From contig JACAEV010000165.1 of assembly GCA_013388645.1 (NCBI GenBank), positions 1-58,757 of the forward strand: a stretch of DNA of 58,757 nucleotides. Reading direction: 5' to 3'. This document shows positions 25,156-45,932 of the stretch, piece after piece. The notes beneath the pieces were generated by a model. It did no database searches and was not told the DNA's origin. It saw only the letters and a program-made list of their open reading frames with translations. This DNA comes from Syntrophaceae bacterium (GTDB lineage Bacteria; Desulfobacterota; BSN033; UBA1163). Made by a program: the position numbers and the translations under genes. Numbering within the stretch: the stretch's first letter is position 1; every line of letters starts with the position of its first letter.

Positions 25156-25842
25156 TTAGGACGCTTCCCCGAAAAGAGATTGTAGGGCGTCGTCCTTGGC
25201 TTCTCGGATATGTTCCCGCATGACCCGTTCACAGAGATCTGGATCTCTCAGTCGTAAAGCCATGAGAATCTTTCGATGTCCTTCGACCGCCCTTCTTCCC
25301 CCGTCGGGATATCGAAGGGTATGCTGACGATGTCTCAATACATATTTTCTCATGTTGACGATCAAGCGGTGGAGACGGGTCTTATTCGCTACCAATTCAT
25401 GAAGGGTATCATGAAATCGGGTGTTCCATTTGAAAACATCTTCAATTTTTTTTCTTCTTAGTGCCTCTTCAGCATGTTCAATAGATTTTTCGAGTTGATG
25501 AAGGATTTCTTCTGAGATACTCTCAGAAATGGCTCTTAACGTATAGCCTTCGAGGATAGAGCGAAGCTCAAAAAGTTCTTCTACCTCCTCCCTTGAATCC
25601 CTGGAGACAATAAATCCTCTTTTCCTGCGGGTTTTTATGAGACCCTCTGATTCCAGTTTGTGGAGAGCTTCTCTCACAGGGGTACGACTGACTCCCAATG
25701 TTTTGGCGAGATGTTCTTCGGTTAGTTTTTCACCAGGGTTCAAATGACCGGAGAGAATGGATGACTTAATGTATTCATAGACTTTTTCTCTGGCGGGGAT
25801 GGAATGTTTAGTTTTGATTGTTGGAAGAGGAATATTTTTCAT
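25156..25842 (-). CDS. GntR-family regulator, FCD (FadR-like) subgroup
   Basis: 228 residues. The N-terminal winged helix is TEEHLAKTLGVSRTPVREAL followed by LESEGLIKTRRKRGFIV. The C-terminal FCD all-helical ligand-binding domain begins ELFELRSILEGYTLRAI and carries a metal-binding-type set of His and Asp (TRFHDTLHELV, HRKILMALRLRD). It lies next to the TctABC genes on the same strand, so it probably controls carboxylate uptake. FCD regulators of this type often bind TTGTATACAA-like palindromes; such sites exist at 35472-35485 and 47041-47048, but I see none at the tct genes. Confidence 0.88.
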   Translation of the reverse strand: MKNIPLPTIKTKHSIPAREKVYEYIKSSILSGHLNPGEKLTEEHLAKTLGVSRTPVREALHKLESEGLIKTRRKRGFIVSRDSREEVEELFELRSILEGYTLRAISESISEEILHQLEKSIEHAEEALRRKKIEDVFKWNTRFHDTLHELVANKTRLHRLIVNMRKYVLRHRQHTLRYPDGGRRAVEGHRKILMALRLRDPDLCERVMREHIREAKDDALQSLFGEAS

Positions 25843-25899: not shown

Positions 25900-27387
25900 T
25901 CAGTCCTCTTCTATCACCTTAGGCTTTTTTCTAATCACACTATAAAGGATTGAAACGATTGCGATCAAAAGAATCACTCCGGCGATGGGACGGAATAAAA
26001 AGGCAGAAAGATTATAATCCGCCATCCTCATTCCCCGTCGCAGGGAGATCTCTGTCAGGTTTCCTAATACCAAACCGATGATCATCGGCGCAATGGGGTA
26101 ATTATATTTCTTCATGAAGTAGCCCACCACACCGAAGAAGAACATAATCCAGAGATCCGTCACATCATTCCGAATCCCGTAAGAACCGATGGACGCGAAG
26201 ATAAAGATACAGGGACCGAGAATGGAGTAACGGATTCTTCTAAAGTTGGAGAAGAGTTTTGCCACGCCCAATCCTGCGAAAAGCATCAGGACATTGGCGA
26301 GGAACATGGCGATGAAAATGGAATACATTAATTTAGGCTGATTCATGAAGAGCATGGGACCTGGTTGAAGACCGTGGACAAGAAATCCTCCGATGATGAC
26401 TGCGGTCGTGGCACTCCCTGGAATTCCAAGAGTGAGAAGTGGAACCATGGCCCCTCCGGTGGCGGCGTTATTTGCTGTCTCAGGTCCCGCGATTCCTTCC
26501 GGAATTCCGGTTCCAAATTTTTCAGGATGCTTTGACCAGCGAACAGCCTCTGCATAACCCACAAACGCAGCGGTTGTGGCTCCTACCCCTGGCAAAATTC
26601 CAATCCATGTCCCAATGATGGCAGAGCGGAGAACGAGCCACTTCATCTTAAGAATTTCCTTTATCCGGGGTAATTTGGTTGAGATTTTTGAAAGAAAGAC
26701 CTCTTTTTTCTCGGTTTTACTCTCTGATCTTGCAAGGATTTCTCCCACGGCAAAGGCTCCGATAATCGCAGGGATAAAATTAATTCCTCCAATGAGGGCC
26801 TTTCCCCCGAAGGTGAAACGGGGATCACTGGTCATCGGATCAATTCCTACCGTGGCCATCAGAAGACCAAAGACGCCTGCAATGGCAGCTTTCTTTAACC
26901 CCTTTCCACCCAGTGAGGCAATTAGAGTAAGTGCTGTAATAGCCAAAGCGAAATATTCAGGCTGGGAGAAAGTCAAGGCAACTCCTGCCAAAAGGGGAGA
27001 GATCAATGTCATGATCACAACGCTGAACAATCCACCGATACAGGAGCAGATGACGGCATAGCCCAGGGCGTGGGCCGCCTTCCCTTTTTTAGCCATTTCA
27101 TAACCGTCGAAGACCGTTGCTGAAGCTTCGGGAGCACCAGGAACATTAAATAGGATAGCTGAAATAGAGCCACCGTATGTTCCTCCACAATAGACGGCTG
27201 ATAACAATGCCAGGCCATTCACCGGGCTCATCGCAAAAGTGAATGGAATGAGAAGTGCTGTTCCCATGGTGGAATTGAGGCCCGGAACAGAACCCAATAT
27301 TACCCCAAGAAGGACTCCACCCCAAATGATAAGGAGAGTGGTGAGATTGAATATATTTTGTATTGCCCCTAACCAGATATCCAGCAT
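25900..27387 (-). CDS. tctA: Tripartite tricarboxylate transporter, large permease TctA
   Basis: About 495 residues with ten or more membrane helices and the TctA hallmarks GVLLGVILGSVPGLNSTMGTAL, YCGGTYGGSISAILFNVPGAP and LPGVGATTAAFVGYAEA. It ends the tctC-tctB-tctA group. It imports a carboxylate at the expense of an ion gradient after capture by the periplasmic TctC protein. ATG 27387 has TGAGGT 5 bases upstream and is preferred to GTG 27399. Confidence 0.93.
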   Translation of the reverse strand: MLDIWLGAIQNIFNLTTLLIIWGGVLLGVILGSVPGLNSTMGTALLIPFTFAMSPVNGLALLSAVYCGGTYGGSISAILFNVPGAPEASATVFDGYEMAKKGKAAHALGYAVICSCIGGLFSVVIMTLISPLLAGVALTFSQPEYFALAITALTLIASLGGKGLKKAAIAGVFGLLMATVGIDPMTSDPRFTFGGKALIGGINFIPAIIGAFAVGEILARSESKTEKKEVFLSKISTKLPRIKEILKMKWLVLRSAIIGTWIGILPGVGATTAAFVGYAEAVRWSKHPEKFGTGIPEGIAGPETANNAATGGAMVPLLTLGIPGSATTAVIIGGFLVHGLQPGPMLFMNQPKLMYSIFIAMFLANVLMLFAGLGVAKLFSNFRRIRYSILGPCIFIFASIGSYGIRNDVTDLWIMFFFGVVGYFMKKYNYPIAPMIIGLVLGNLTEISLRRGMRMADYNLSAFLFRPIAGVILLIAIVSILYSVIRKKPKVIEED

Positions 27388-27416
27388 AATCGACCTCACG
27401 ACAAAACCAAAAGGAG

Positions 27417-27500: not shown

Positions 27501-27992
27501 TTAATAGAAAATGTGGCTAAAATCGAGAAAGATCCATTGGCCTCGGGGGAGAGGGACATACATGGCTTTTGTAAAGACCCAGACGATTAAAATGGTTAAC
27601 CCGATTGAGACACCAAATATCCATTTCTTTTTTCTCTCACCCAAGAGATACATAAAGGCGATTAGAAAAAAAGGGGTGAGGAGGATGAAACCCAAGACCT
27701 GCATTAATATGAAATAGAGTACAATAAAGCCAATGGCCAGGAAGAGTCTCACCTTTCCGCTTTCAGATTTTTGCGTTCCCTCTTTTTCAGCTTCCCTCTT
27801 TTTTCTTCCGCGGATGGCGTCCACTGCCACCAGAAAGCTAAGAATCATCAGACAAATAAGAAGAAACTTGGGCCAGTAAGCAGGCCCAAGTTTCCCATAA
27901 ACTTCATGTCCCTCAAATTTCATGGATTCGAAATAGAGGTATAGGGAACCAAAAAAAACAACAACACTGATCAGGATTTCCCCTTTCAGCAT
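27501..27992 (-). CDS. tctB: Tripartite tricarboxylate transporter, small permease TctB
   Basis: 163 residues with four predicted membrane helices (ISVVVFFGSLYLYFES, FLLICLMILSFLVAV, LFLAIGFIVLYFIL and IGLTILIVWVFTKAMYV), the shape and size of TctB. The motif PRGQWIFLDF at the C-terminus is often seen in this family. It lies between tctC and tctA. It forms the membrane unit together with TctA. Confidence 0.86.
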   Translation of the reverse strand: MLKGEILISVVVFFGSLYLYFESMKFEGHEVYGKLGPAYWPKFLLICLMILSFLVAVDAIRGRKKREAEKEGTQKSESGKVRLFLAIGFIVLYFILMQVLGFILLTPFFLIAFMYLLGERKKKWIFGVSIGLTILIVWVFTKAMYVPLPRGQWIFLDFSHIFY

Positions 27993-28010: not shown

Positions 28011-28994
28011 TCATTTCTTTTTAAGATAGCCGAGTTCATCAAAGATCTCTTTATACCGGACATATTCCTCTTCCCAGAATTTCCCGTATTCTTCCGGCCC
28101 CTTCCAGCCAGGGCGAAGATCCAGGAGGTTGGCTTTTTCTATAGCCTTGTAGGAAGGATCTTGAGAACACTTTTTAAAGACATCCGCAAGGTAGTTGATA
28201 ACCTCCTGGGGAGTTCCCTTTTTTACACAGAGTCCCCTCCAACGGCCCATCGTGATGTCATATCCCAATTCTCTGCCTGTCGGGACATCCGGAAATTTAT
28301 CCAGCCTCTTCTCAGTAAAGGCAATCAGGGGGCGGAGCTTCTTCGCCTCAATGAGAGACATGATCACCCCTGGCTCTTCATGGAGGATATCAATATGACC
28401 CCCTAAGACAGCCGCATGGGTTTCAGGAGCGGCATCGAAGGGAATGTATTTCACTTTAATCCCGGCTTTCTTGGCGAAGAGCATGATGATGACCTCATCC
28501 GGACTGGCTGCGGTGGTCCCTGTGAACTGAAGTTTTCCGGGGTTTTCCTTAGCATACTTGATGACATCCTGGATTGTTTTAAAAGGGCTCTCTGCTCTTA
28601 CATAAAAGATGCTCTGATCCTGCTGAACCATACAGAGGGGGGCAAATTCCTTATAATTCTCCCGACCGAAAATCGTATTGATGAGCTGCTCCGGACTGAA
28701 ATTATAAATCGTATAACCGTCTGCAGGTTGAGAAAGCACATAAGTGGAAGCTTTCACCCCTGCTCCTCCGGTCAGGTTCGTGACATTGATAGGGACTTTC
28801 AGTTGCGATCTGGCAGGCATCATCAAACTTCTCACAAAGATATCGCTTCCGCCGCCTGCTCCATATTGAACCACCACTTCAATTGCCCGGGTTGGGTAAT
28901 CTTTGGGTTTAGGGGCTTGACTCCATGCGAAACTCATGAAACACAAAGTGACCAATGTTAAAACGAAAAATGGGGTGATCAAATTCCTCTTCAT
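28011..28994 (-). CDS. TctC/Bug-family periplasmic substrate-binding protein
   Basis: 327 residues with a signal peptide (LITPFFVLTLVTLCFMSFAWSQA). The Bug fold motifs are YPTRAIEVVVQYGAGGGSD near the start, TGGAGVKASTYV, and the C-terminal domain with GTPQEVINYLADVFKK and GYLKKK. These proteins bind di- or tricarboxylates or aromatic acids and deliver them to TctAB. The gene begins the transporter group and lies 42 bases after the aminotransferase stop, so all four may share a transcript. Confidence 0.92.
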   Translation of the reverse strand: MKRNLITPFFVLTLVTLCFMSFAWSQAPKPKDYPTRAIEVVVQYGAGGGSDIFVRSLMMPARSQLKVPINVTNLTGGAGVKASTYVLSQPADGYTIYNFSPEQLINTIFGRENYKEFAPLCMVQQDQSIFYVRAESPFKTIQDVIKYAKENPGKLQFTGTTAASPDEVIIMLFAKKAGIKVKYIPFDAAPETHAAVLGGHIDILHEEPGVIMSLIEAKKLRPLIAFTEKRLDKFPDVPTGRELGYDITMGRWRGLCVKKGTPQEVINYLADVFKKCSQDPSYKAIEKANLLDLRPGWKGPEEYGKFWEEEYVRYKEIFDELGYLKKK

Positions 28995-29036: not shown

Positions 29037-30203
29037 TCACTGGCTTGAAAGATAATCAAGGGCTTCTGTGACACCTCCTTTCGAAAAGGGCACGTTGGCG
29101 AGGGAAAGACCCATTTCAATGCCACTCAATGTGCCAGCGAGCATCAACCCATTGAAATCACCCAGGTGTCCAATACGAAATAATTTACCCTTCCATTTGC
29201 CGAGGCCAGTGCCGAGAGACATATTAAACTTCTTTAGAATCAATTCACGAAATTCATCCGCATTGAATCCGTTGGGCATCAACACAGCGGTGAGGGATTG
29301 ACTATATTCATTCGGATTTGAGCAAAGAAGTTCAAGACCCCATGTCCTGACGGCTCGACGTGTTGCTTCCCCAAAACGATAATGGCGGGTAAAGACATTT
29401 TCCAACCCCTCTTCGAATAACATGCTAATAGACTCACGGAGACCGTAAAGAAGATTGGTCGCAGGCGTATAAGGGAAAAAACCAGACTGATTATCGTGGA
29501 TTATGACCTCCCAACCCCAGTAAGATTTAGGGAGTCGAGCGGAGTTCGATGCAGCCAGCGCCTTATCGCTAATGGCATTAAATCCAAGGCCGGGCGGTAG
29601 CATTAAACCTTTTTGAGAGCAACCGATCGTGACATCCACCCCCCACTCATCGTGCCGATAATCCATCGAAGCGAGGGAAGAGATGGTATCGACCATCAAT
29701 AAGGCTGGATGTCCAACTCGGTCAATGGCGTTTCGAACTTCGGGAACACGGCTGGTCACCCCTGTGGACGTTTCATTATGGACGATTGCAATCGCTTTGA
29801 TGAGCTGTTTTTTGTCTTCAGAAAGCCTTTTCTCGACCAAAAGAGGATCCACCCCATGGCGCCAGTCTCCGGGAATAAAATCGACATGGAGCCCTAACTT
29901 GATCGCCATATTTCGCCAGAGGGTTGCGAAATACCCTGTTTCAAACATCAATATCTTATCTTCGGGTGAAAGAGTGTTAACCAGAGCTGCTTCCCATGCT
30001 CCGGTTCCAGAAGAAGGGTAAATGACCACCGTCCCGGAGGTTTTGAAAATCTTTTTCATCCCATCCATGATGTCTTTGGTAAGTTTCGCAAATTCCGGTC
30101 CACGGTGGTCAATTGTTGGTTGGGACATGGCCCTTAAAACACGGTCAGGGACGTTCGTGGGTCCAGGAATTTGTAGAAAATGCCTTCCACTTTGATAGAT
30201 CAT
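29037..30203 (-). CDS. Class V aminotransferase, serine/alanine-glyoxylate type
   Basis: About 388 residues. FLQIPGPTNVPDRVLRAM is the standard opening of alanine- and serine-glyoxylate aminotransferases, and CSQKGLMLPPGLGF contains the PLP-binding Lys. MVDTISSLASMDYRHDEWGVD supplies the PLP-pocket Asp. I prefer ATG 30203 (MIYQSGRHFL), which fits the family start and has CGGAGAA upstream; ATG 30242 would add 13 residues. It is encoded upstream of tctC on the same strand, so the imported acid may be linked to glyoxylate or amino-acid metabolism (inference). Confidence 0.88.
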   Translation of the reverse strand: MIYQSGRHFLQIPGPTNVPDRVLRAMSQPTIDHRGPEFAKLTKDIMDGMKKIFKTSGTVVIYPSSGTGAWEAALVNTLSPEDKILMFETGYFATLWRNMAIKLGLHVDFIPGDWRHGVDPLLVEKRLSEDKKQLIKAIAIVHNETSTGVTSRVPEVRNAIDRVGHPALLMVDTISSLASMDYRHDEWGVDVTIGCSQKGLMLPPGLGFNAISDKALAASNSARLPKSYWGWEVIIHDNQSGFFPYTPATNLLYGLRESISMLFEEGLENVFTRHYRFGEATRRAVRTWGLELLCSNPNEYSQSLTAVLMPNGFNADEFRELILKKFNMSLGTGLGKWKGKLFRIGHLGDFNGLMLAGTLSGIEMGLSLANVPFSKGGVTEALDYLSSQ

Positions 30204-30260
30204 AAAGAAGCTTTTCTCCGATTTAAACTCATTTCTCTTCACTTTATATGAGCGATTTTC

Positions 30261-30290: not shown

Positions 30291-32006
30291 CTATTTCCAC
30301 GGCTTCCCGCTTAAACCAAACCCTTCTTCACCCTTAAGCGCCTTTAGCACCAGACTTGCCTTTGTCCGAGCATCTATCTTTTTATCGGTAGTGATATTCA
30401 GCTTTGATCCAAACTTCTCAAAACAAAACGTCGTGAGCGCCTCCATCGTTTGTTGACTTCCGGTAACAGGTAATGCAGGCCAGAAGTAAGTTGAAATTCC
30501 CATCGCCACCGTCCACATCGCCTCTGTCACCTCTGAACTTCGATGCGCTTCTGGAAAGACAGCGACCATGGGTAGACTCCTCATTTCTTTTTTTCCCGCT
30601 TTGGCAATCTCAAAGAGGAAATCAACCGTATCCCCACTTCCAAAATCGAGGATCGAAGGGATATCTTTTCCTAAGGATGAAAGAATCTCTGAAAATATTT
30701 TATTGCAATGTTTTTCTCTTTGGGCGGGATTAAGGAGTCCATATTTAGCTAAGGCAACGCTTGCCTGACCATTCGAGATACATAGAAGATCATTTTTTAA
30801 GAATTCCTGTGCCATTGTAAGCAACTCGTGGTCCTGGGTGTACTTGACGTTGTTACTTCCTGAAAGGATGACGATCCCGTTCACCTGGCCTTTATTTAAG
30901 GCTGCCATCACTTTTTTGGGATCCACCTGCTCTCGGGAAAATCCCATGACGGCTACCTCTGTTGGTTCCGGGATATCTCTTGCGATATTTCGGCGGAAAT
31001 CGAAGGATTTTTTAGCCTTTTCAACAATCTGCCTCGCCCATTGGTTGGGGTCTTTCCCTCTTTTCAATCCCTCAGATAGAAGGATGGGTACCTCCCATTC
31101 TTTGGCAATCCTGGTCAGTGAGGGATTGACCCATTCGTTTCCCACCACGATGAGATCAACAGCTCCTGTCATGATGGGAATTTCTTGGGATCCGTAATTG
31201 GTGACTTGAGGAAAGCAGAATGGTGGTATCAAAGGGTCGGTACAAACGCCTGCAACATGAGCCCCTTTCTTTTTTGCTTCTTCGGCGATTTTTCGTTTCA
31301 GAATGGGGGAGACGTATCCATAAATAAGGAGGTTGGGGGCATCTTCTTTTAGGACACCCAAACTGACTTCTACCCTGGTTGGAATAAAATCTCCAAAGAC
31401 TGATTTTTTTAAATTTCCGTACAGCCGTTTGGCCAACCCTCCCAGGAGAGAGGCTTTGAATGACCACAGGAGTGTTTCTTCAACTCCTCCCATTCCACCC
31501 TCGAGATTTTGAGAAGCTTTGAAGAGATCTCTTGCAATCCCTTCCGGAGCAATGCCCGCTTCTTCCCATCGGCGCATCAAAGATTTTGGAAATTCTTTTT
31601 TAAGCTGATCTCCTCCGTGGTGAATGAGGCTTTGAATTGCTTTTAGAATTTGATCTGTCTTTTCCTTATTTTTGGGTTTGACTCCCTTCGATTCTATCCC
31701 ATAGGCAAAGTCATTCAATTGATCGAGGTACACCATGGTCCCTTTTAGGACAAGTCTCAGTAACGATTGAGCCGCAAGGATATTTTTATCTTTTCCACAC
31801 ACGCCCTGTTTACTTGAGTCTCGAAAGGGATGGCTGATACAAGGGCCTTGCAAGCAGTCCCGACAACTTAATCCCGTTTCACAGAAACCGCATTCAGGAA
31901 GCTGCCCTTCATAACGATCCCATACCAAAGACAGTTCGCCTTCTGCGGCTTTTGGCAAAAAAAATTCTACCGCTCTGTCGATCGTTTTCTTCTGAATAAA
32001 TTCCAT
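30291..32006 (-). CDS. CO dehydrogenase (CooS)-like protein lacking most C-cluster ligands
   Basis: 571 residues, shorter than usual CooS (~630). The N-terminus keeps CGFCETGLSCRDCLQGPC with C39, C42, C48, C51, C56 and C70, the D- and B-cluster ligands; the CX2C spacing is like Desulfovibrio CODH. The fold is recognisable throughout (NYGSQEIPIMTGAVDLIVVG, VKYTQDHELLTMAQEFLKND, AMWTVAMGISTYF). Yet the Ni-Fe-S C-cluster positions, aligned by eye, are changed: Y231 for the His, W292 for the VQC Cys, S384 in SGSNN for GCNN, Q414 in SNGQAS for TGC, and G458 in FGSGD for GSC. C255 may be the one remaining ligand. CO oxidation is therefore unlikely. It may carry electrons or bind a different ligand or cofactor. 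Genes for a CooF-like ferredoxin and an FAD oxidoreductase lie upstream, as in CooS-CooF-FNOR clusters. Confidence 0.85.
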   Translation of the reverse strand: MEFIQKKTIDRAVEFFLPKAAEGELSLVWDRYEGQLPECGFCETGLSCRDCLQGPCISHPFRDSSKQGVCGKDKNILAAQSLLRLVLKGTMVYLDQLNDFAYGIESKGVKPKNKEKTDQILKAIQSLIHHGGDQLKKEFPKSLMRRWEEAGIAPEGIARDLFKASQNLEGGMGGVEETLLWSFKASLLGGLAKRLYGNLKKSVFGDFIPTRVEVSLGVLKEDAPNLLIYGYVSPILKRKIAEEAKKKGAHVAGVCTDPLIPPFCFPQVTNYGSQEIPIMTGAVDLIVVGNEWVNPSLTRIAKEWEVPILLSEGLKRGKDPNQWARQIVEKAKKSFDFRRNIARDIPEPTEVAVMGFSREQVDPKKVMAALNKGQVNGIVILSGSNNVKYTQDHELLTMAQEFLKNDLLCISNGQASVALAKYGLLNPAQREKHCNKIFSEILSSLGKDIPSILDFGSGDTVDFLFEIAKAGKKEMRSLPMVAVFPEAHRSSEVTEAMWTVAMGISTYFWPALPVTGSQQTMEALTTFCFEKFGSKLNITTDKKIDARTKASLVLKALKGEEGFGLSGKPWK

Positions 32007-32083
32007 TTCCTACTCCTTTCTACCTTCTCTCAATTGATAAAATTCAACATTCCATCCTTCCAGTATTCCAACCGTTTTTTTCA

Positions 32084-32536
32084 TCAGAATGCTTTTGTTC
32101 GGTAATCCTTTCTCTCCTCCAATTTGATGGCTTGAGTCGGGCAGACCTCTGCACAGATGGGATAACCCATATGCCGGCATCGATCGCATTTGATAGCGAC
32201 TTTCATGGAAGCAGAGGGATTAATGATTCCAAAAGGGCAAACCATCACACACATCCAGCAGGCGATACAGGTGGGTTCATTCACATAAACCAATCCGGTC
32301 TCTGGATCCCTTCGCATTGTTCCATTGGGACAGGCTTCGATGCACGGGGCTTCCTCGCAATGGCGACATTGGAGGGCAAAATCTTTCCCCTCGACATAGA
32401 CTCTTGGAATCGGGTGGGGCTCTTCACGGATGGCCTGATAGAGTTCTTTGGAGACCGAGGCGATTTCGGTGCCGCACCAGAGTTCACATTGATGGCATCC
32501 CGTACACTTATTTTTATCAACCACTAAGATTTTCAA
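32084..32536 (-). CDS. CooF/HycB-like ferredoxin with four [4Fe-4S] motifs
   Basis: About 150 residues from TTG 32536, which has GGAGGG directly upstream; a GTG at 32557 is the alternative. The Cys motifs are CTGCHQCELWC, CRHCEEAPCIEACP, CIACWMCVMVCPFG and CDRCRHMGYPICAEVCP, ending PTQAIKLEE. This is the four-cluster pattern of CooF and of small subunits of molybdo- and hydrogenase complexes. It is probably the electron carrier between the CooS-like protein and the FAD oxidoreductase encoded on either side. Confidence 0.88.
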   Translation of the reverse strand: MKILVVDKNKCTGCHQCELWCGTEIASVSKELYQAIREEPHPIPRVYVEGKDFALQCRHCEEAPCIEACPNGTMRRDPETGLVYVNEPTCIACWMCVMVCPFGIINPSASMKVAIKCDRCRHMGYPICAEVCPTQAIKLEERKDYRTKAF

Positions 32537-32557
32537 TTTTCCCTCCTGGTTTAGCAC

Positions 32558-32620
32558 AGCCTGAAGGCTGCGGCTACAAATTTTTTTCGTTTATCCTTAT
32601 AACTTGCAACTTGAAACTTT
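32558..32620. repeat. Palindrome plus CTTGCAA-type heptamers
   Basis: AGCCTGAAGGCT at about 32568-32580 is a small dyad. 32594-32617 holds CTTATAA CTTGCAA CTTGAAA CTTTTAT, again of period 7. No gene. Confidence 0.5.
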
Positions 32621-32622
32621 TA

Positions 32623-33930
32623 TTACAACCCCGTATCCATGATCTCTTTATATTCCGTCTCTGTAAATCGATCCGCGTTTCGTCTGATCAGTGGCAGGAT
32701 ATCCATGAAATTAAGGTTCCTGCTCATCAAAACGGGAATATACTCCGAGACATCGATCTGTTTCTTCAAGAGAATTTGATACAGGCCAGCCTTCTGAGTT
32801 TGGCCCACGAGGATGACTCCTGCCAGCCGACCCTTTTTAATGATCAGTTTCTTATAGGCATCTTTGGTTCTCCTCTTGATTTCCTGAAAGGATTCCCCTG
32901 CTTCGCAGGTCGAACAGGTTTCAGCACGGGTCAGCCCCATGGAGATGGCAGGGACACCAATAAAATTTCCAATGGAGTTTCTTCGAAAAGAGCCGATATA
33001 AAGCGTCTTTTTTCCTGCCATGTTGAGTCCAGCCACACGGCCCTGTTCAACGGCACAGGGCCAGATCGCATTAATCCAGCTGGACTCTCGGGTGATATCA
33101 AACGTTTCAGCGACATCTCCAGCAGAATAGATATCCTGAACATTTGTCATCATCTCGGCATTGACCTTGATGCCTTCCAATGAACCAATTTCTATGCCAA
33201 CCTTTTTAGCCAGTTCAATAGCGGGCTTTACGCCGACGGCCAAGACGACCATTTCACATTTGATTTCCCTCGACTCGGTTACCACACTTTCTACGTGTCC
33301 ATTTCCAGAAAATTGAATCGCCTTTTCTCCAGTTACCGTTTTAATCCCGAGATCCTCGATTCGTTTCTGAATCATCGAGGCCGCCTCTTCATCAAAAACG
33401 GTTGGCAGAACATGTCCTAATTGTTCAAGCAGGGTCACTTCCATCCCTCTTTTTCTCAAGCTGATACAGGATTCGACCCCCACGCTTCCCGCTCCGATCA
33501 CGACTGCTCTTTTGCCTTTCCATTGGTAGATTTTTTCTGCATCTGCCATCGTTTTCAGAGTGGAAATTCCTTCTTTCTGAATCCCTTGAATGGGAGGGAT
33601 GATAGGATTTCCTCCGGTGGCCAAGAGAAGTTTGTCAAAAGGGTAGGCTTCCCCGTTCTCGGCTGTCACAGTGTTAGATTCCGAAGAGATCTCTTTAATT
33701 CTCACCCCGAGGTGGGAGGTTATTTTGTTCTGTTCAAAGAAGTCCGAAGATCGGAAGTTCAGGAGGGGTTTCGAAAGCTCCTCTGCAATATAGTAGGGCA
33801 GGAGAACCCTTGAAAAGAGTGGGGTAGCTTCATCACTAAAAAGTTCAATCTGGGATTCACGATCAATGGAGCGAATCGCTTCTATGGCACTGATGGCTGC
33901 CGCACTCCCTCCGATGATGACGTATCGCAT
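32623..33930 (-). CDS. FAD/NAD(P)-dependent pyridine nucleotide-disulfide oxidoreductase family
   Basis: 435 residues. ATG 33930 is chosen for its AAGGAGA site and the direct start MRYVIIGGSAAAISAIEAI, an FAD-binding Rossmann motif. A second dinucleotide motif (VVIGAGSVGVESCISLRKRG) binds NAD(P)H, and IYSAGDVAET is the FAD-contacting GD motif. The C-terminal part (from ~320) carries CSTCEAGESF and GRLAGVILVGQT, as in NirB-like or FNOR proteins found with CooS/CooF. It likely exchanges electrons between NAD(P)H and the CooF-like ferredoxin. Confidence 0.87.
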   Translation of the reverse strand: MRYVIIGGSAAAISAIEAIRSIDRESQIELFSDEATPLFSRVLLPYYIAEELSKPLLNFRSSDFFEQNKITSHLGVRIKEISSESNTVTAENGEAYPFDKLLLATGGNPIIPPIQGIQKEGISTLKTMADAEKIYQWKGKRAVVIGAGSVGVESCISLRKRGMEVTLLEQLGHVLPTVFDEEAASMIQKRIEDLGIKTVTGEKAIQFSGNGHVESVVTESREIKCEMVVLAVGVKPAIELAKKVGIEIGSLEGIKVNAEMMTNVQDIYSAGDVAETFDITRESSWINAIWPCAVEQGRVAGLNMAGKKTLYIGSFRRNSIGNFIGVPAISMGLTRAETCSTCEAGESFQEIKRRTKDAYKKLIIKKGRLAGVILVGQTQKAGLYQILLKKQIDVSEYIPVLMSRNLNFMDILPLIRRNADRFTETEYKEIMDTGL

Positions 33931-33950
33931 GGTTTTCTCCTTGTCAGTAA

Positions 33951-34028
33951 GCATGGAGCATAGGGTATAGAGTGATTATTGTTGCGATAGAAAAATTCTA
34001 TGCTCCATGCTCTTTGCTCTCTGCGAAT
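33951..34028. repeat. GCATAGG/TCTATGC heptamer inverted arms
   Basis: The left arm is AGCATGGAGCATAGGGTATA (33951-33970). The right arm (33997-34026) is TCTATGC TCCATGC TCTTTGC TCTCTGC. The arms are inverted and have period 7. A close relative occurs at 48346-48380. Confidence 0.65.
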
Positions 34029-34675
34029 TAGTATAGACTATGAACCATATATAACGGCAACAATTCTTTAAAGAGCCTAATTCCACGAGTCAAATTATAA
34101 TTGCCACAAGTACAGCACTTGGCCATTTCCAGACATGCCTCCTCAACGGTTCTCCGCCCCCGCTTGACATCCCGCACCAATTTCCGGATCAGATCCGCTC
34201 CAATCATGGCATGGCCGCACATGGTATGGGTCTTCAGAATCTCAAACTCGGGCAGCAATTCCGTTTTCCCCCACGTGCCCAGGGAATATTCAATGGTATG
34301 GATGCGCCCCAGCCCGGCTTCTTCCATACATTGCTGGACGATGTCGCTGACCCCTGATATGATGACCGAGATGCCGGGTCTTTTTTCCTTCAGGTCTTTT
34401 AAGAGGGAAACGATTTTCTCTCGGTTGTCAAATGTACACTGAACGATCGTCCCATCCGTGACATGGCTCAGGATATCATCCATGGTGGTATTGTAAATAT
34501 TTCCTGTCTTCATATCGCCGAGATTGATGGGGCCGTTTTTATAACAAATGCTTAAAAACTTCTGGGTCTTGGGTGCTGACCCTGCTTTATTAATTCCCGT
34601 AGCCGGACATCCTAAAACGACAAAATCATCTTTTAGGTCCTCAAGGTTTCCTCTTCGATGAAGACTATGGGTCAT
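34028..34675 (-). CDS. Unrecognised cysteine-rich protein in the CooS-like operon
   Basis: 215 residues, soluble, with no family I can name. It has ten cysteines, including CYKNGPINLGD and the C-terminal KCCTCGNYNLTRG. Regions such as ISVIISGVSDIVQQCMEEAG and THTMCGHAMIGADLIRKLV look like an alpha/beta domain. ATG 34675 has GAGGAGGAAC just upstream and the stop of the [4Fe-4S] protein gene lies 12 bases before it, so they are one operon. The Cys set suggests an iron-sulfur or metal site. Its association with the C-cluster-less CooS suggests a role specific to that system (inference). Confidence 0.6.
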   Translation of the reverse strand: MTHSLHRRGNLEDLKDDFVVLGCPATGINKAGSAPKTQKFLSICYKNGPINLGDMKTGNIYNTTMDDILSHVTDGTIVQCTFDNREKIVSLLKDLKEKRPGISVIISGVSDIVQQCMEEAGLGRIHTIEYSLGTWGKTELLPEFEILKTHTMCGHAMIGADLIRKLVRDVKRGRRTVEEACLEMAKCCTCGNYNLTRGIRLFKELLPLYMVHSLY

Positions 34676-34687
34676 GATGTTCCTCCT

Positions 34688-35440
34688 CTATTTCTCTTCG
34701 TAAAACCTGAAGGCCGGTTCTCCCAGTCCCATGTTGTTTTTAGTATTGATGGAATACCAATATCCCAATCTTTCAAGGATGGGTTTGATGGGAATTTCTC
34801 CCACCGGAGGGACCTTGGTAATCACCTCGACTGTAAAAACAGAGCTAACCTTTTGGGCAGCCCGCTTCACTGCTTCCAGAATAACAGGGAGGTTCTCCAA
34901 TTTGCATTTCCCCTCGACGATGGCAGAGGTCGCCTTTTCATTAAGAATATCATCCCTGAGTTTCCCGGTCTTTTTGTCTTTCATAAAATGGGTAATCGGA
35001 TTTTCCTCGGCAAACTCATATCCTAAGGGAGCAAGTTCCATCGCAACGATCTCAACATCCTTAAAATAGGCTCCTACCCCGGGTCTTCCCAATTCAATGC
35101 CCACTCCGACTTCCCCAGGACGGAATCGGCCTGAAACGTCATTCGTTTTCATCTCCTCCGTTCCTCGGCCTGGGACCTGTGACCCTTTAAATTCAATAAG
35201 GGGATTGCTCAGGATGCCCCGGACTTCACGTGGCCAGAGCATTTCAGGTTGATAAAGGGCTTTAACAGGACAGATATTGGCACGCAGGCAAACACCGCAG
35301 TCCGTGCACTTCTCCTGGTCTATTTCGATGAAAAATCTTCCAGGGATCTTTTCATGCCGTTTGACCGTCTGAATTCTTCCCATGGGACAATAAGGGAAAC
35401 ATCTCTTACAGGCAATACATTTATCCTGATCCGCCTTCAT
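34688..35440 (-). CDS. Iron-sulfur protein with N-terminal 2x[4Fe-4S] ferredoxin domain
   Basis: 250 residues. Residues 1-65 hold CIACKRCFPYCPMGRI and CTDCGVCLRANICPVKAL, two [4Fe-4S] motifs; the second has an extra residue before its last Cys. The remaining ~180 residues (RPGEVGVGIELGRPGVGAYF, NEKATSAIVEGKCKLENLPV) match nothing I can name. It is the first gene of the minus-strand operon, with TAGGAGG before the ATG and a perfect AATTGTATACAATT palindrome about 32 bases upstream. It may be an electron donor or a dedicated enzyme of this locus. Confidence 0.7.
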   Translation of the reverse strand: MKADQDKCIACKRCFPYCPMGRIQTVKRHEKIPGRFFIEIDQEKCTDCGVCLRANICPVKALYQPEMLWPREVRGILSNPLIEFKGSQVPGRGTEEMKTNDVSGRFRPGEVGVGIELGRPGVGAYFKDVEIVAMELAPLGYEFAEENPITHFMKDKKTGKLRDDILNEKATSAIVEGKCKLENLPVILEAVKRAAQKVSSVFTVEVITKVPPVGEIPIKPILERLGYWYSINTKNNMGLGEPAFRFYEEK

Positions 35441-35471
35441 AAAACCTCCTACTTCACGCCCTGCTTTTATA

Positions 35472-35485
35472 AATTGTATACAATT
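35472..35485. promoter_or_regulatory. GntR/FCD-type operator palindrome
   Basis: AATTGTATACAATT is a perfect 14-base palindrome lying between the predicted promoter and the ATG of the iron-sulfur operon, where a repressor would block transcription. FCD-type GntR regulators are known to bind TTGTATACAA-like sites. A shorter match (TGTATACA) lies before the diheme cytochrome gene. Confidence 0.6.
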
Positions 35486-35512
35486 TTTATTTTGAATTAA
35501 CTTAAAAAATTT

Positions 35513-35539
35513 TTTATAATATTGTTATGATATTGTCAA
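35513..35539 (-). promoter_or_regulatory. Promoter of the CooS-like iron-sulfur operon
   Basis: On the minus strand TTGACA (35534-35539) is followed by TATAAA after 15 bases or TAAAAA after 17. The operator at 35472-35485 lies just downstream. Confidence 0.45.
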
Positions 35540-35766
35540 GAGAAAAATTGAGTTAAAATATTTTTGATATTTCAATAGATTATATCTATTTTCCGTTTGA
35601 AGGATCAGGAGGATGGGAAGCGAGCCGGCTCATTTCCCGTGGCGGATAAATTAAAAAATTGGATACAATTATTAGATGATCGGGCTTGACCAGATGAATC
35701 CAAACCATTATGAGAAGATAGGCTTTTTTACGGGGAATCCGTTCACGAGGGAGGAGATTTTTGAAA

Positions 35767-36003
35767 ATGGCTTTTGAGGTAATCGTTCACTCAGAAAAAT
35801 GTAAAGGTTGTGAGGAGTGTCTGGAAGTCTGCACCGTGAATGTGTTTAAGATGCAAGAGGGTAAATCGGTCCCTGTGAATGTTAAAGAGTGTCTTGGCTG
35901 TCGGAGCTGCGTGGAAGTTTGTACAGAGGAAGCCATTACCGTGAAAGAGTTAGAACCGGAAATGTCAGAAATCGCCCGGATGCTCTTAAAGGATATCCTT
36001 TGA
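35767..36003 (+). CDS. Small 2x[4Fe-4S] ferredoxin
   Basis: 78 residues with CKGCEECLEVCTVNVF and CLGCRSCVEVCTEEAI. In both motifs the residue after the fourth Cys is Thr instead of the usual Pro, an unusual shared feature. ATG 35767 is about 10 bases after GGAGGAG; a TTG at 35761 is nearer than ideal. It is divergent from the iron-sulfur operon and may share its regulation through the operator sequences between them. Confidence 0.82.
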   Translation: MAFEVIVHSEKCKGCEECLEVCTVNVFKMQEGKSVPVNVKECLGCRSCVEVCTEEAITVKELEPEMSEIARMLLKDIL

Positions 36004-36956: not shown

Positions 36957-37376
36957 TTATTCGCCGAGGATATGGATCAAAATACCCCGTTCTCTTTTTC
37001 GGTTATCAAAATCGATGAAAACAATCTGTTGCCATGTCCCCAAGGTCAGCCTTGCACCAATGAGGGGAATGGTGAGAGAAGGTTTCATCAGTGCAGCCCT
37101 CACATGGGAGAAGCCATTGCCATCACCCCAGCGTTGATCATGCTCGTAAGGGATATTTGACGGAGCGATCTTTTCAATCGTTCTTTGCAAGTCCCTAAGC
37201 ACCCCTGATTCGTACTCGATCGTCGTTACTGCTCCTGTTGACCCAGGGCAAAATACTGTGACCAAACCATTTTTTATTCCAGATCGGCCGATGACCGCTT
37301 TCACGTGAGGGGTGATATCCAGGATATCGCTAAACCCTTTTGTACTTAAGGAAATGGTTTCCGAAAAGATCCTCAT
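36957..37376 (-). CDS. YjbQ family (UPF0047) protein
   Basis: 139 residues, the normal family length. Hallmarks are the N-terminal TKGFSDILDIT, FCPGSTGAVTTIEYESGV, the GDGNGFSHVRAALM His motif, LGTWQQIVFIDFDNR and a C-terminal basic end. Members have weak thiamine-phosphate synthase activity, but the true role is unknown. It is probably co-transcribed with the CDF exporter, whose start follows 4 bases later. Confidence 0.88.
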   Translation of the reverse strand: MRIFSETISLSTKGFSDILDITPHVKAVIGRSGIKNGLVTVFCPGSTGAVTTIEYESGVLRDLQRTIEKIAPSNIPYEHDQRWGDGNGFSHVRAALMKPSLTIPLIGARLTLGTWQQIVFIDFDNRKRERGILIHILGE

Positions 37377-37688: not shown

Positions 37689-37691
37689 TTA
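37663..37691. repeat. AACCTT hexamer repeat
   Basis: Four AACCTT-type units at the 3' end of the DUF169 gene. The minus-strand TAA stop (37689-37691) falls in the repeat. Confidence 0.6.
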
Positions 37692-38438
37692 TTGTTTCTG
37701 AATCCTCTGAAGAACTTTCTTCCAACTCTCCGTTTGGAGGAAACTTCCTGACACATTTTCTAATAATTTTAGAAATACGGAGTATGGCATGGCAAGGGTG
37801 AGGACTTCTTTTTCAACTATGGGCCTTGCAGAGACATCAAACATTCCAAGAATGGCGTGAGACTGTTCTTTTACAGCCTCCTTCAAAGGATAGGTGAGAA
37901 TCGTTCCACATCCGGAGCCAAAGGGTGCATAAACAGCATCCGTGCGTTCCAGGGCGTAGTTCGTCAACGTGAAGAGGCCTGAAAGGATATCCGGTGGAGC
38001 GAAGAAAGCAACTACCTCTGGCTCCAAGCCATTCTGAAATTGCTCAAGGGGCTTAAAGACACAATAAGTGGCAGGGGCTCGTCTTGGTATCATCTTGGCG
38101 AAGTATTCCCTGGCCCGTTCCGGTGTTTTGATATAACGTTCTCCCTCCATTTCACCGGGAATCCCACAGGAGAGAAAATATTCGATATCGGGCCTTGGGG
38201 ATTCAAAAAAACCCATGTAGTAAGCCCCTCCGGGGCATCCGAAGTGAGCCTTATCGAAATAAACAGTCTTTCCTTTCTTCCTCGCATTCTGAAGAAGTCC
38301 GATCATGCAGCCCTGGATTCCTTCTTTTGGGGTGATCCCTTCGGGTTTTTCATTTGTATAATAGATTCCCAAAGGTGATTCCTTTAATCCAAGGACTTCT
38401 TTAAGTTGATTCCATGACACTTCAGAAAAAAGACTCAT
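37689..38438 (-). CDS. DUF169 family protein
   Basis: 249 residues. Features of the DUF169 group are KESPLGIYYTNEKPEG near the start, CPGGAYYMGF, FFAPPDILSGLFTLTNYA and FGSGCGTI. Three to five cysteines (GCMIGLL, FGCPGG, GSGCGT) suggest a metal or cofactor site. The function is not established. Such genes often lie near corrinoid or methanogenesis-type genes in anaerobes, which fits the island upstream. It is on the same strand as the PocR-AraC regulator. Confidence 0.75.
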   Translation of the reverse strand: MSLFSEVSWNQLKEVLGLKESPLGIYYTNEKPEGITPKEGIQGCMIGLLQNARKKGKTVYFDKAHFGCPGGAYYMGFFESPRPDIEYFLSCGIPGEMEGERYIKTPERAREYFAKMIPRRAPATYCVFKPLEQFQNGLEPEVVAFFAPPDILSGLFTLTNYALERTDAVYAPFGSGCGTILTYPLKEAVKEQSHAILGMFDVSARPIVEKEVLTLAMPYSVFLKLLENVSGSFLQTESWKKVLQRIQKQ

Positions 38439-38493: not shown

Positions 38494-39882
38494 TTATGAC
38501 ATAGTTTCTGAGGGAGGGGAGGGCTCAATCGGTTCAAAATCTAATAATTTTTTTCTATACTCAGAGGGATGAACTCCTTCCCTTTTCTTAAAAACCTTGG
38601 CAAAGTGACTTGGATCCTGATAACCGATTTCAAGACAGACCTCCAAGGCGGTCATAGAAGTTTCTTTCAGAAGGCGCTTGGCAATGGAAAGCCTGACCGA
38701 AGTGAGATACTCCAAAAAAGTAATGCCCATCTCCTTCCGGAAGAGATGGCTGAGATAATAAGGACTAATTCCTACAGCCTTCGCTGCCTTCTTTAAAGAT
38801 ATCTCCTGGTTGTAGTTGGCCCAGATAAAATCCTTTGCCTTAATAAAGATTCGGGGGTGCAGGATATTCCGATTTTGATAAATACATTTACATAGCTGAT
38901 CGAAGGCATTCAGAAGGCAGTAATAAAGGTTTTCTTGGGAGTCATCTTTGGAGAGGTCTTGAAAGAAATGGTATTTGTATCCTAAGATTTCTTCGAGATT
39001 TGCCCCGGCTTCGACTGCGGCTCTCGCAATGATGACGATGATCTCGAGCATTCTGGCTTTTAAAATCCCGATATGTTCATGGCTTCTAAATAGCACTGTC
39101 CCGAGGAGCTCATCTAACAGAACTCTCGCTTTTTTCTTGTCTCCCCTTTTAATCAACTCAATCAGTTCATTCTCTTTAAAAAAATCCTCCCTTGGGTGAG
39201 TAGAAGTTACCTGAAATTTTTTCAAACTATTTTCCGATTCTTTCCTCATATAAAGTTCTTCAGCCAATCGAGCTTGTTCCATGGAGATTTCACGTTGCTG
39301 TTTCTGAAAGATCCAATCGACCTTTGAGAAATAATTTGCCATTGCAAACAAGAGATCGGAGGCAGCTTGAACCCTCCTTTCAGAGAACACAAGCACTTCG
39401 GAGAGGGACTTCAAGAGTAACGATTTGTCAAGGGGAAGATCATGAATTCTTCTGAGGATGTTCTTTTCTAAGGAAGTGTCGTAGGGTCTCAACAAAACGG
39501 GTCCACAGACTAAGGCATAATTAAGATGGCCTCCATCGAGAATGGCTGCGGCACATTCAATCATATCTGCATGGCACTGGAAAATGTAAGGTTCCCCAGT
39601 TTTAATGGACATTTTGGTTGCCCGGATGATTTCTTTGAGACAACGCTTCCTCCCCGCAGAGCAGCTCTGAACTATTCTACAGAATGCAGGGCCCTCTCCG
39701 TTAGTCAGGTGAGGGAACTCCTTCCCCTTCATTTGAACGAAGCGGACTCGAAGTTTCGTTGCCTCTTGGAAAGAATCGATGATTCGGCAGAGTAGATTAT
39801 TCTCGGGTGGTTTCTGGAAAATTTGGCGAGGAATCCTTTGTTCACCAAAAGAGGTGATGATGTTTTTACCTTTTTCCGACAT
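38494..39882 (-). CDS. PocR-domain AraC-family transcriptional regulator
   Basis: 462 residues from ATG 39882 (a frame further upstream overlaps the corrinoid gene and is not needed). A PocR sensory domain (~20-190) has FCRIVQSCSAGRKRCLKEI, FQCHADMIECAAAIL and YALVCGPVLL, with a Cys set that often binds an Fe-S or hydrocarbon/alcohol signal. A helical region follows. The C-terminal AraC DNA-binding domain is ISLKKAAKAVGISPYYLSHL plus SMTALEVCLEIGYQDPSHFA. In family members this architecture controls alcohol or methanogenic-type substrate use. Here it is encoded in the corrinoid island and overlaps the corrinoid gene by 17 bases, so it probably regulates that island. Confidence 0.9.
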   Translation of the reverse strand: MSEKGKNIITSFGEQRIPRQIFQKPPENNLLCRIIDSFQEATKLRVRFVQMKGKEFPHLTNGEGPAFCRIVQSCSAGRKRCLKEIIRATKMSIKTGEPYIFQCHADMIECAAAILDGGHLNYALVCGPVLLRPYDTSLEKNILRRIHDLPLDKSLLLKSLSEVLVFSERRVQAASDLLFAMANYFSKVDWIFQKQQREISMEQARLAEELYMRKESENSLKKFQVTSTHPREDFFKENELIELIKRGDKKKARVLLDELLGTVLFRSHEHIGILKARMLEIIVIIARAAVEAGANLEEILGYKYHFFQDLSKDDSQENLYYCLLNAFDQLCKCIYQNRNILHPRIFIKAKDFIWANYNQEISLKKAAKAVGISPYYLSHLFRKEMGITFLEYLTSVRLSIAKRLLKETSMTALEVCLEIGYQDPSHFAKVFKKREGVHPSEYRKKLLDFEPIEPSPPSETMS

Positions 39883-40510
39883 CAAGCAGTTCCTTGGCCT
39901 TTCTAACCCCCTCCATGGCATCCATTCCAAATCCATCGGCACCAATACTGTCTGCAAACTCCTGGGTAATTGGGGCACCACCGATAATGGTTTTCACCTT
40001 CCCCCTCAATCCTGCTTTTTTCAATGCAATAAGGGTGTCCTCCATGGCGTGCATGGTTAATGTATATAGACATGAAAGAAGAAGGAGATGAGGCTTCTCC
40101 TTCTTAACCGTCCTGACGAAAGTTTCGGGAGTGACATCGACCCCCAAATCAATCACTTCAAATCCCCCTGCTTCCATAAACATGACAACAATATTCTTAC
40201 CAATATCGTGAATATCTCCTTCGACCGTTCCCGCTACCGCCTTCCCAATATATTGACGGCCATGAGTTTTCAGCAAAGGGTAGATCCAGTTTAAGCATAG
40301 TTTAGTGGCCATTGCAGAGACAAGAACATTAGGTATAAAATATTCGTATTCCTTCCACTTTTTCTCTACCTCCTCCATAGCTTTTAAAACTCCTTTTTCG
40401 ATAATCTCAGAAGGAAGAAACCCATCCTTTAGGCATCTATTCATGATGGCATTGATATTTTTAATATCCCCTTTAATAATAGCAGATTCTAACTGGCGAA
40501 TCGGATTCAT
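39866..40510 (-). CDS. Corrinoid (B12-binding) methyl-carrier protein, copy 2
   Basis: 214 residues. An N-terminal helical cap domain (B12-binding 2) is followed by the Rossmann-like B12 domain with GTVEGDIHDIGKNIV, whose H101 is the lower cobalt ligand. Further motifs are LLLSCLYTL and IIGGAPITQEFADSIGADGF. It is the MtaC/MtmC/MtbC type. It overlaps the RACo-like gene by 4 bases and the regulator by 17. It differs clearly from the copy at 45933-46568, so it may serve a different methyl donor. Confidence 0.92.
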   Translation of the reverse strand: MNPIRQLESAIIKGDIKNINAIMNRCLKDGFLPSEIIEKGVLKAMEEVEKKWKEYEYFIPNVLVSAMATKLCLNWIYPLLKTHGRQYIGKAVAGTVEGDIHDIGKNIVVMFMEAGGFEVIDLGVDVTPETFVRTVKKEKPHLLLLSCLYTLTMHAMEDTLIALKKAGLRGKVKTIIGGAPITQEFADSIGADGFGMDAMEGVRKAKELLDVGKR

Positions 40511-42369
40511 AGGGAATGAGATCCGTCTCTTTTTAGTAAAGGAAAGGCCATCCCTTTGATATACTCGTTTTGGAAGTCGGAATGTTTGGCCAGCTCAATA
40601 TATTCAATTTTTTGAGCGATCCGGTTTGCCTCTTCACGCTTTTTTAATGAAAGCAACGCCATCTTTGCTCCTGACCCTGCTGCATTTCCAACGGGTGTAA
40701 TCTTTGTTTTTTTAAAATAGGGGAGCAATCCGATGTGAATCGCGCTTTCAGGTTTTACATAGTTTCCAAAGGCTCCTGCTAAAAAGACTTCATTTATCTC
40801 CATCAGTGGGATTCCTATTGTTCCCGCCAAAATTTGGATCCCTGCCCATATTGCACTTTTTGCTAATTGAAGTTGCCGGACATCTTTTTGGGTGATCAGG
40901 ATATTCTGACCCTGATTACGGTTGCCCTTTTCTTGATAGAGAAGAAACGCTTCTTGGCTATCTGTCCTGATCATACGGCTGGCAAGGTTCCTATTGCCAA
41001 TTTCCTCTTTATTGAGCAACCGACCATCCTGATTAATCATTCTTTCTCTTATCATCTCAGAGATGGCGTCCACCAGGCCTGATCCGCAAATACCTAATGG
41101 GGGCAAGCCATCGATGGTATGAATACGAATTTGCCCCCTACTGTCGATGGCCATCCCATCAATGGCACCACTTGTGCCAGGCATTCCATATTGAATTTGT
41201 CCCCCTTCGAAGGCTGGTCCTGCAGCGCAAGAGGCAGCGACCATTCGATCACAATTCCCCAGCACGATCTCACCATTGGTACCGATATCGATTGCGAGGT
41301 TGACATGCTTGCTCTTGTGGAGTCCGGTGGAGAGGACGACCCCCACGGTATCACTTCCCATAAACCCTGAGATGAGAGGAAGGAGATAGAATTGTCCATC
41401 CGGATGAATGGAGACCCCAATCTCTTTCGCGGGGAATGAAAAAGCTTCTCGAATGGTGGGGGTATAAGGGAAATGGGTAAGGTTCGAAGGGCAAAGACCC
41501 AATAAAAGATGGTGCATGGTAGTATTTCCAACTGCACAAATCTCATAAATCTGTTTGTTCAAAATTCCTGTTTTTTTAGAAACTTCTTGGATGATTTCAT
41601 TCAAGGCACCTATCACTGCGTCCTGAAGTTCCCTCAGCCCATTAGGTGCTGAAGTGGCGTGAAGAATTCGTGACACCACATCGCCACCGAACTTTGTCTG
41701 AGGATTCATTATGGCTGAGAGAGACAACTGGTTTCCCGATGTGAGGTCGTGGAGATATCCAACGATCGTCGTTGTCCCAATGTCGAAAGCCATACCATAG
41801 AGGTGATAACCGGTGCCTGCACCTTTCTCCATATCAAGGCATCGTTGACTCATTAAAATACAGGACAGGCGACCTTCCTTGATGTTCCCATTTTCCGAAA
41901 GCTGTTTGAGAAAGTGTAGGGTAGGATATGATTCCAATCTATTTTTGGATCCCATTTGGGATCGAATTGCTTCCCAACTCAGATCCCTTTTTAAACTTTG
42001 AGAAGAAATCCGGATTTCTTTCTTTTTAACCGATGGATTAAGTTTTAACTCCTTTAAAGAGCCCTCCACTAATATTTTGATCCGACGCTCCATGGAAGTT
42101 TGGGGTATATGTACCTCAGTTGATTTTAAAACTTTGGACTGGCAGGCTAATCGAACTCCTTTCTGAATGTTCTTAGCACCAATGATTTTCATTTCAGATT
42201 CATTCGGAGGTGTGAGACCATCAGCGCAAAGAACCCTGCACTTTCCACATCGGCCGACCCCTCCGCATTCATTCCTAAGATGAATTCCTGCGGAAGCAAG
42301 AGCGGATAAGAGATTTGTTCCCTTGGGGACGTTCAGGTCCTTTTCAAAAGATTGAATCCTCAATCTCAT
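40507..42369 (-). CDS. Reductive activator of corrinoid proteins (RACo-like), with [2Fe-2S] domain
   Basis: 620 residues. Residues 1-~90 form a plant-type [2Fe-2S] ferredoxin domain (CGGVGRCGKCRVLC then ACQSKV). A linker follows, then a large ASKHA-type domain (AFDIGTTTIVGYLHDL, LAIDIGTNGEIVLG, AGPAFEGGQIQYGMPG, EVFLAGAFGNYVKPESAIHI). RACo-type proteins use ATP to reduce inactive Co(II) corrinoids back to Co(I). It is encoded with its likely client, the corrinoid protein at 39866-40510. Confidence 0.92.
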   Translation of the reverse strand: MRLRIQSFEKDLNVPKGTNLLSALASAGIHLRNECGGVGRCGKCRVLCADGLTPPNESEMKIIGAKNIQKGVRLACQSKVLKSTEVHIPQTSMERRIKILVEGSLKELKLNPSVKKKEIRISSQSLKRDLSWEAIRSQMGSKNRLESYPTLHFLKQLSENGNIKEGRLSCILMSQRCLDMEKGAGTGYHLYGMAFDIGTTTIVGYLHDLTSGNQLSLSAIMNPQTKFGGDVVSRILHATSAPNGLRELQDAVIGALNEIIQEVSKKTGILNKQIYEICAVGNTTMHHLLLGLCPSNLTHFPYTPTIREAFSFPAKEIGVSIHPDGQFYLLPLISGFMGSDTVGVVLSTGLHKSKHVNLAIDIGTNGEIVLGNCDRMVAASCAAGPAFEGGQIQYGMPGTSGAIDGMAIDSRGQIRIHTIDGLPPLGICGSGLVDAISEMIRERMINQDGRLLNKEEIGNRNLASRMIRTDSQEAFLLYQEKGNRNQGQNILITQKDVRQLQLAKSAIWAGIQILAGTIGIPLMEINEVFLAGAFGNYVKPESAIHIGLLPYFKKTKITPVGNAAGSGAKMALLSLKKREEANRIAQKIEYIELAKHSDFQNEYIKGMAFPLLKRDGSHSL

Positions 42370-42440
42370 GGGTGAGTTTTAAATGATCATTTGCAAAAGA
42401 CAAAATTTTGAAAATTAATATAGCAGAAGTTCCCAAATAT

Positions 42441-42468
42441 GAAAAGGGGGGAGTATTTCATCCCCCCC
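42441..42468 (-). terminator. Intrinsic terminator after the MFS transporter gene
   Basis: The minus strand reads GGGGGGATGAAATACTCCCC plus CC followed by TTTTC. This is a seven-base-pair stem (42446-42452 with 42461-42467) with an 8-base loop, lying between the MFS gene end and the RACo gene start. Confidence 0.6.
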
Positions 42469-42510
42469 TCAAATTAAAGTGAAGATAAGGTGCTATCCTT
42501 TCTAATGATT

Positions 42511-43878: not shown

Positions 43879-43916
43879 AATTCCCCTCCTTCATTTTTAA
43901 TTTTGATTCGATTGAT

Positions 43917-44717: not shown

Positions 44718-44738
44718 GGCGTATTCTTTTTATCCAAT

Positions 44739-45899: not shown

Positions 45900-45932
45900 A
45901 GATCCCTCTCTCCTTTCGCTTTAGGTTGCCAT

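Follow-up and report, generated by a model that had tools for sequence, protein, structure and literature searches.

In a group of anaerobic bacteria, a carbon monoxide dehydrogenase (CODH) seems to have become a component of electron transfer. The case analysed here is a gene at positions 30291 to 32006 (minus strand) of a stretch of 58,757 nucleotides, referred to as the window (contig JACAEV010000165.1 of the Syntrophaceae bacterium assembly GCA_013388645.1). Its 571-residue product, which we call CooS', is confirmed as a CODH-derived iron-sulfur protein that has the predicted CODH fold and the cysteines of the B- and D-clusters and has lost nearly all ligands of the C-cluster.

The open reading frame of CooS' is intact, and its relationship to CODHs was established from profile and PDB matches, alignments and a predicted model. 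The protein matches the Pfam Prismane family PF03063 (E 6e-47, 160.8 bits, gathering cut-off 27), while its score against the NCBIfam CODH equivalog TIGR01702 (214 bits) lies under the cut-off of 478. By sequence it matches CODH-IV (PDB 6elq, E 5e-64) and CODH-II (E about 3e-54), whose PDB chains can be aligned over most of its length. The AlphaFold2 model (mean pLDDT 74.6, pTM 0.80) has the CODH/prismane fold, as it superposes on CODH-II with a VIA Z of 39.7 and a root mean square deviation of 3.0 over 517 aligned residues, and the Foldseek search with this model gave an E of 2e-30 and a TM of 0.80.

The C-cluster of CODH-II needs one His and five Cys (H261, C295, C333, C446, C476 and C526), and CooS' lacks this ligand set of Ni,Fe-CO dehydrogenases. 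The initial annotation, made by eye from the window alone, had read Tyr231, Trp292, Ser384, Gln414 and Gly458 in place of these residues, and the alignments bear out all five (H261 to Y231, C333 to W292, C446 to S384, C476 to Q414, C526 to G458). Its broader statement that the Ni-Fe-S ligands were replaced holds for these columns but overlooked that C294/C295 of CODH-II reads C255-T256 in CooS', so that the cysteine adjoining the C295 position is retained, and every one of the 19 sequences that we aligned has this C255. The acid-base catalysts His93 and Lys563 are also gone (Y93 and S491). The N-terminal wiring was described correctly as well, with C48, C51, C56 and C70 of the [4Fe-4S] B-cluster and C39 and C42 of the D-cluster all kept. 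The latter is of the CX2C form (C39-x2-C42, type III, [2Fe-2S]) and not of the CX7C form, with S47 in place of C47.

Homologous loci were collected in two overlapping sets, ten from related genomes (window included) and eighteen from GTDB contigs. The 19 aligned sequences comprise 15 without the ligands, from full-length or near-full-length genes (one ended by the contig end), and four that bear them (loci L043, L044, L045 and L048). None of the 15 has a Cys at the C333, C446, C476 or C526 position, and all 15 have one at each of the six N-terminal positions. In the maximum-likelihood tree they form one clade, recovered in 91% of bootstrap trees and sister to the four ligand-bearing sequences, which resemble the published CODH clade G; both are jointly set apart from ordinary CODHs (99/99). 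The simplest history that fits this topology is a single loss of the C-cluster from a clade-G-like ancestor, after which the protein was retained. The hosts are uncultured Deltaproteobacteria (Syntrophaceae, Syntrophales, Syntrophobacterales, Desulfohalobiaceae and an Olavius symbiont). Counting both types, the CooS family is found in 10 of the 23 genomes of the window's class and in 7 of 395 sampled across the phylum, and no relatives were found in the viral contigs searched. The clade is under purifying selection, with pairwise ratios of nonsynonymous to synonymous substitution rates (dN/dS; unsaturated dS only) of 0.10-0.20, and of 0.01-0.13 within the stretch that contains the B- and D-clusters (residues 1-100).

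CooS' is encoded within a conserved gene set. The minus-strand order is FDX250, CCTCG, FNOR, CooF, CooS', AT5, TctC, TctB, TctA, GntR, and the segment FDX250-CCTCG-FNOR-CooF-CooS keeps this gene order in every locus whose contig reaches far enough upstream. CooF (32084 to 32557, minus strand) is a polyferredoxin-like protein of 157 residues with Fer4 domains, whose 16 Cys make up four [4Fe-4S] motifs. FNOR (32623 to 33954, minus strand) is identified by its profiles (Pyr_redox_2) as an FAD/NAD(P)-dependent oxidoreductase, and its nearest NCBIfam relative is PadH (278 bits, under the cut-off). The CCTCG protein (34028 to 34675, minus strand; 215 residues) belongs to an uncharacterised family in which the motifs MCGH and C-x-C-G are invariant. 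It has no Pfam or NCBIfam family, its Pfam matches being weak and at chance level only, no PDB match by sequence, and no match of its model in Foldseek at E<=0.001 or at a VIA Z >=5. FDX250 (34688 to 35440, minus strand), the first gene of the operon, combines a 2x[4Fe-4S] ferredoxin domain with a conserved domain that has no Pfam family and carries the motif GRGTEEMKTNDV...ELGRPGVGAYF. The initial annotation had named these four partners together with a second ferredoxin-type protein. The latter, FDX80 (35761 to 36003, plus strand; alternative ATG at 35767), is a divergent 2x[4Fe-4S] ferredoxin of 80 residues that is transcribed from the opposite strand and lies outside the operon; it occupies the same divergent position in most relatives. 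The co-directional unit also runs beyond the region first described, through an aminotransferase and TctC, TctB and TctA to the GntR gene at 25156.

The four ligand-bearing proteins have H, T, C, C, C, C, K in the C-cluster columns, that is, His and four Cys are kept and Thr stands at the C295 position. TctABC adjoins their genes, and FDX250-CCTCG is present where the contig shows it. These clade-G-like proteins may likewise not be CO dehydrogenases.

The FDX250-CCTCG pair extends beyond these loci. Of 297 genomes of the phylum, 25 contain the CCTCG family, and a single genome can have as many as nine matches; FDX250 and CCTCG homologues were both absent from the plasmids searched. Among twenty CCTCG regions that we examined (picked for variety and not as a random sample), eight have the pair next to a gene for a CooS-like protein of 489-526 residues (open reading frames L083_1, L084_5, L085_6, L086_6, L092_5, L094_6, L095_13 and L100_11); CooF is missing only from L085 and FNOR only from L100. 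All four B-cluster cysteines persist in these short proteins, but the C-cluster ligands are gone, as is, in seven of the eight, the first D-cluster cysteine. They look like a further step of cluster loss, of which we found no description. At a dozen or more other sites the pair has no CooS, CooF or FNOR with it and is found close to TctABC or TRAP transporters and to genes for PdxA, an altronate-type dehydratase, CoA-transferase III, AFOR and thiamine pyrophosphate (TPP) enzymes. The pair is strongly expanded in several genomes (G047, with the nine CCTCG matches, and also G236, G040, G077 and G140), where its copies adjoin acid transporters and catabolic genes.

As CooS proteins with a C-cluster, without it and with the B-cluster only all have the same partners (FNOR being absent once), the shared function needs no C-cluster. 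FDX250-CCTCG, which also occurs without the other three, is the constant part and looks like the core, and the distribution across loci marks CooS, CooF and FNOR as an accessory set that works at each of three degrees of cluster loss in CooS. Furthermore, CO chemistry in this genome is independent of the CooS' gene, because a separate CdhA-type CODH (G000:C159:7826-9544, locus L001) is encoded in an open frame of 768 residues, where visual inspection shows the C-cluster ligand motifs.

We turn to what CooS' may do. The sequence evidence favours the proposal of the initial annotation, a working electron-transfer system that either lacks CO chemistry or binds a different ligand. Within this proposal, we lean toward CooS' being a non-catalytic, dimeric iron-sulfur relay or scaffold that joins FDX250-CCTCG to two partners, a polyferredoxin and an NAD(P)H-flavoprotein. 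CooS' would dimerise via its D-cluster as CODH does, FNOR would exchange electrons with NAD(P)H through its FAD, and electrons would run in either direction between FNOR, the 16-Cys CooF, the D- and B-clusters of CooS', the two ferredoxin clusters of FDX250, and CCTCG. FDX250-CCTCG, the conserved core, would presumably be the catalytic unit; more speculatively, it would oxidise or reduce an organic acid imported by TctABC, and AT5 might handle a glyoxylate-like product. On a wider and more tentative proposal, which we regard as less likely than not, the five proteins would together be an NAD(P)H-linked iron-sulfur oxidoreductase of a new class, acting on imported organic acids, with FDX250-CCTCG as an undescribed catalytic core and CooS' as either its dimeric wiring or a new substrate-binding subunit.

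Some observations weigh against a mere relay. Residues 1-71 of the CooS' model, where the B- and D-clusters lie, are of low confidence, and the CCTCG model is only moderately confident (pLDDT 75) and has no clear fold match in the PDB. The C476 position is E, D or Q in all 15 clade members and the C446 position is always S, T or G, and sequence conservation is higher near the lost ligands than elsewhere in the C-terminal part (mean entropy 0.94 versus 1.27). This constraint suggests that the pocket is perhaps not merely vestigial, and it is also the best argument for the emptied pocket having acquired a new use, in catalysis or in the binding of an organic substrate, a metal ion or another cofactor, with the acidic or amide residue at the C476 position involved, which would make CooS' a new kind of catalytic subunit. 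An acid stands in that column in six of the eight short CooS-like proteins as well, and CooS-V demonstrates that both the cluster and the chemistry of the scaffold can change (PMC9311411). We nevertheless regard such a reuse as rather unlikely, as the H261, C333, C526 and K563 positions vary widely in the clade (Y/S/H/P/R/T/F at H261, deletions at C526), which is unusual for an active site, and the short B-cluster-only proteins differ at most of these columns in the same context. Less probable again is an unusual Fe or Fe-S-O cluster held by non-cysteine ligands (C255, Q/E/D414 and S/T384), an extreme version of CooS-V, which swaps one Cys for Glu and holds a [4Fe-3S-nO] cluster (PMC9311411). 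The invariant C255 would fit such a cluster, but at most one of the six pocket ligands is still Cys and His261 is gone in most members, whereas CooS-V retains His and four Cys at its C-cluster (group D-1, PMC6344411).

The two remaining explanations can be rejected with far more confidence. The loss of catalytic residues would be expected of a CODH gene decaying under relaxed selection, but the 15 genes, which are spread over several families, share their substitutions in one clade, have no internal stops, stay in a fixed operon and show the low dN/dS given above, so that the initial claim that this is not random decay is upheld and a pseudogene is very improbable. A recoded in-frame TAG considered in two relatives was also discarded, as it is the normal stop at the gene end. 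That CooS' might be a functional Ni-CODH that was simply misaligned draws on its strong overall similarity to CODHs, and deserves hardly any credence. Each ligand column lies within a conserved motif (HGH, DYQC, GCNN, GC, GSC, EK), independent aligners concur, there are no spare conserved cysteines to serve as substitutes, and no alignment restored His or Cys to the C-cluster columns.

CooS' differs from each of the known systems with which it was compared. It shares the Prismane/CODH superfamily with the class III hybrid cluster protein (PDB 7e0l), a homodimer, but the structural match is weaker (VIA Z 24.6 versus 39.7). The hybrid cluster is held by His, Glu and Cys, and, with the correspondence to CODH columns taken from general knowledge, the cysteine positions common to both protein types are lost in CooS'. 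CooS-V of Carboxydothermus hydrogenoformans (clade D-1, PDB 7b7q) is the known case of a CooS other than a CO dehydrogenase, having a C295E change and an Fe-S-O hybrid cluster (PMC9311411). It is like CooS' in its CODH fold and altered active-site ligands, but it changes one cysteine, whereas CooS' lacks the set and has no Glu at C295, and it is a distant relative (E 1e-20, versus 5e-64 for CODH-IV). The closest published relative appears to be structural group G-1 of clade G, known in 2019 (Inoue et al.) from a single protein (OGP75751) with a type III D-cluster, Tyr at His93, His, Thr at Cys1, four Cys and Lys, and reported with FNOR and CooF (PMC6344411). The four ligand-bearing proteins show this signature (OGP75751 was compared via its published signature). 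CooS' has in common with it the C39-x2-C42 D-cluster and Y93, but of the His, Thr, four Cys and Lys only Thr256 is kept; across the window's clade, no member has any of the four remaining Cys, nearly every member is without the Lys, and most are without the His. CODH-CooF-FNOR operons of clades C, D and G (PMC6344411) likewise combine a CooS-type protein with CooF and an FAD/NAD(P) oxidoreductase, while the operon in the window is without a C-cluster and adds two uncharacterised partners, FDX250 and CCTCG, together with an aminotransferase and a transporter for carboxylates. Last, the short mini-CooS of Thermosinus carboxydivorans (clade G), as far as it is described where Techtmann 2012 is cited (PMC8776680), is reported to have a complete metal-cluster motif, which sets it apart from the short proteins found here, which keep only the B-cluster.

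CODH is regarded as being among the oldest enzymes, and to our knowledge every known departure from it retains an active-site metal cluster. A lineage that is stable despite a stripped cluster site, with its wiring kept, would show that the CODH scaffold can be used as an electron-transfer part. Our search of the open-access literature, which took in few subscription papers, yielded no description of the ligand-less clade. Published surveys removed such sequences by design, which is why this branch has been invisible so far: sequences whose C-cluster residues deviate were excluded from the Ni-CODH surveys of 2022, 2024 and 2026 (PMC13240472, PMC8776680), and a 2026 eLife context study omitted clades G and H. 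Databases may mis-call such genes as CO dehydrogenases. Two uncharacterised families, FDX250 and CCTCG, are also exposed as recurring in acid-catabolism loci.

Downstream of CooS' lies the class V aminotransferase AT5 (29037 to 30242, minus strand), assigned from its profile and as a conserved neighbour; it is closest to the L-aspartate:glyoxylate aminotransferase BhcA, at 435 bits and thus under the cut-off of 650. AT5 directly follows CooS' in most ligand-less loci with room for it (L035, L038-L042 and L046), lies further downstream in L050 and is not directly after it in L036 or L047; in the four ligand-bearing loci there is no AT5 next to CooS and TctC comes immediately. The transporter genes are those of the tripartite tricarboxylate type, with the periplasmic receptor TctC (28011 to 28994), TctB (27501 to 27992) and TctA (25900 to 27399), all on the minus strand. 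TctA/TctC or TRAP transporters and acid-catabolism genes recur near the loci studied.

The palindromic operator noted initially is real. It is the perfect palindrome AAATTGTATACAATTT at 35471 to 35486, just upstream of the operon, and a second, imperfect and weaker site (TTGGATACAA on the plus strand, 35659 to 35668) lies about 185 bp from it. Both operator-like sites are conserved in four relatives (L035, L036, L037 and L050) and not in more distant loci. The GntR/FCD regulator (25156 to 25842, minus strand) is a candidate binder of the TTGTATACAA sites and might control the operon through the palindromes. In several of the more distant loci, the DNA just upstream of FDX250 reads like the end of a GntR/FCD gene similar to that at 25156, and a full GntR-like open reading frame precedes the operon in L101 (the L048 contig).

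Further upstream in the window, a YjbQ-family gene (36957 to 37376) and a DUF169 gene (37689 to 38438), both on the minus strand, recur near the operons of relatives, together in L035, L048 and L050 and with DUF169 also in L036, L037 and L045. They are followed by a group of corrinoid methyl-transfer genes (38494 to 46568, minus strand), which code for a PocR/AraC regulator, two B12-binding corrinoid proteins, a RACo-type reductive activator, and pterin-binding and URO-D-type methyltransferases.

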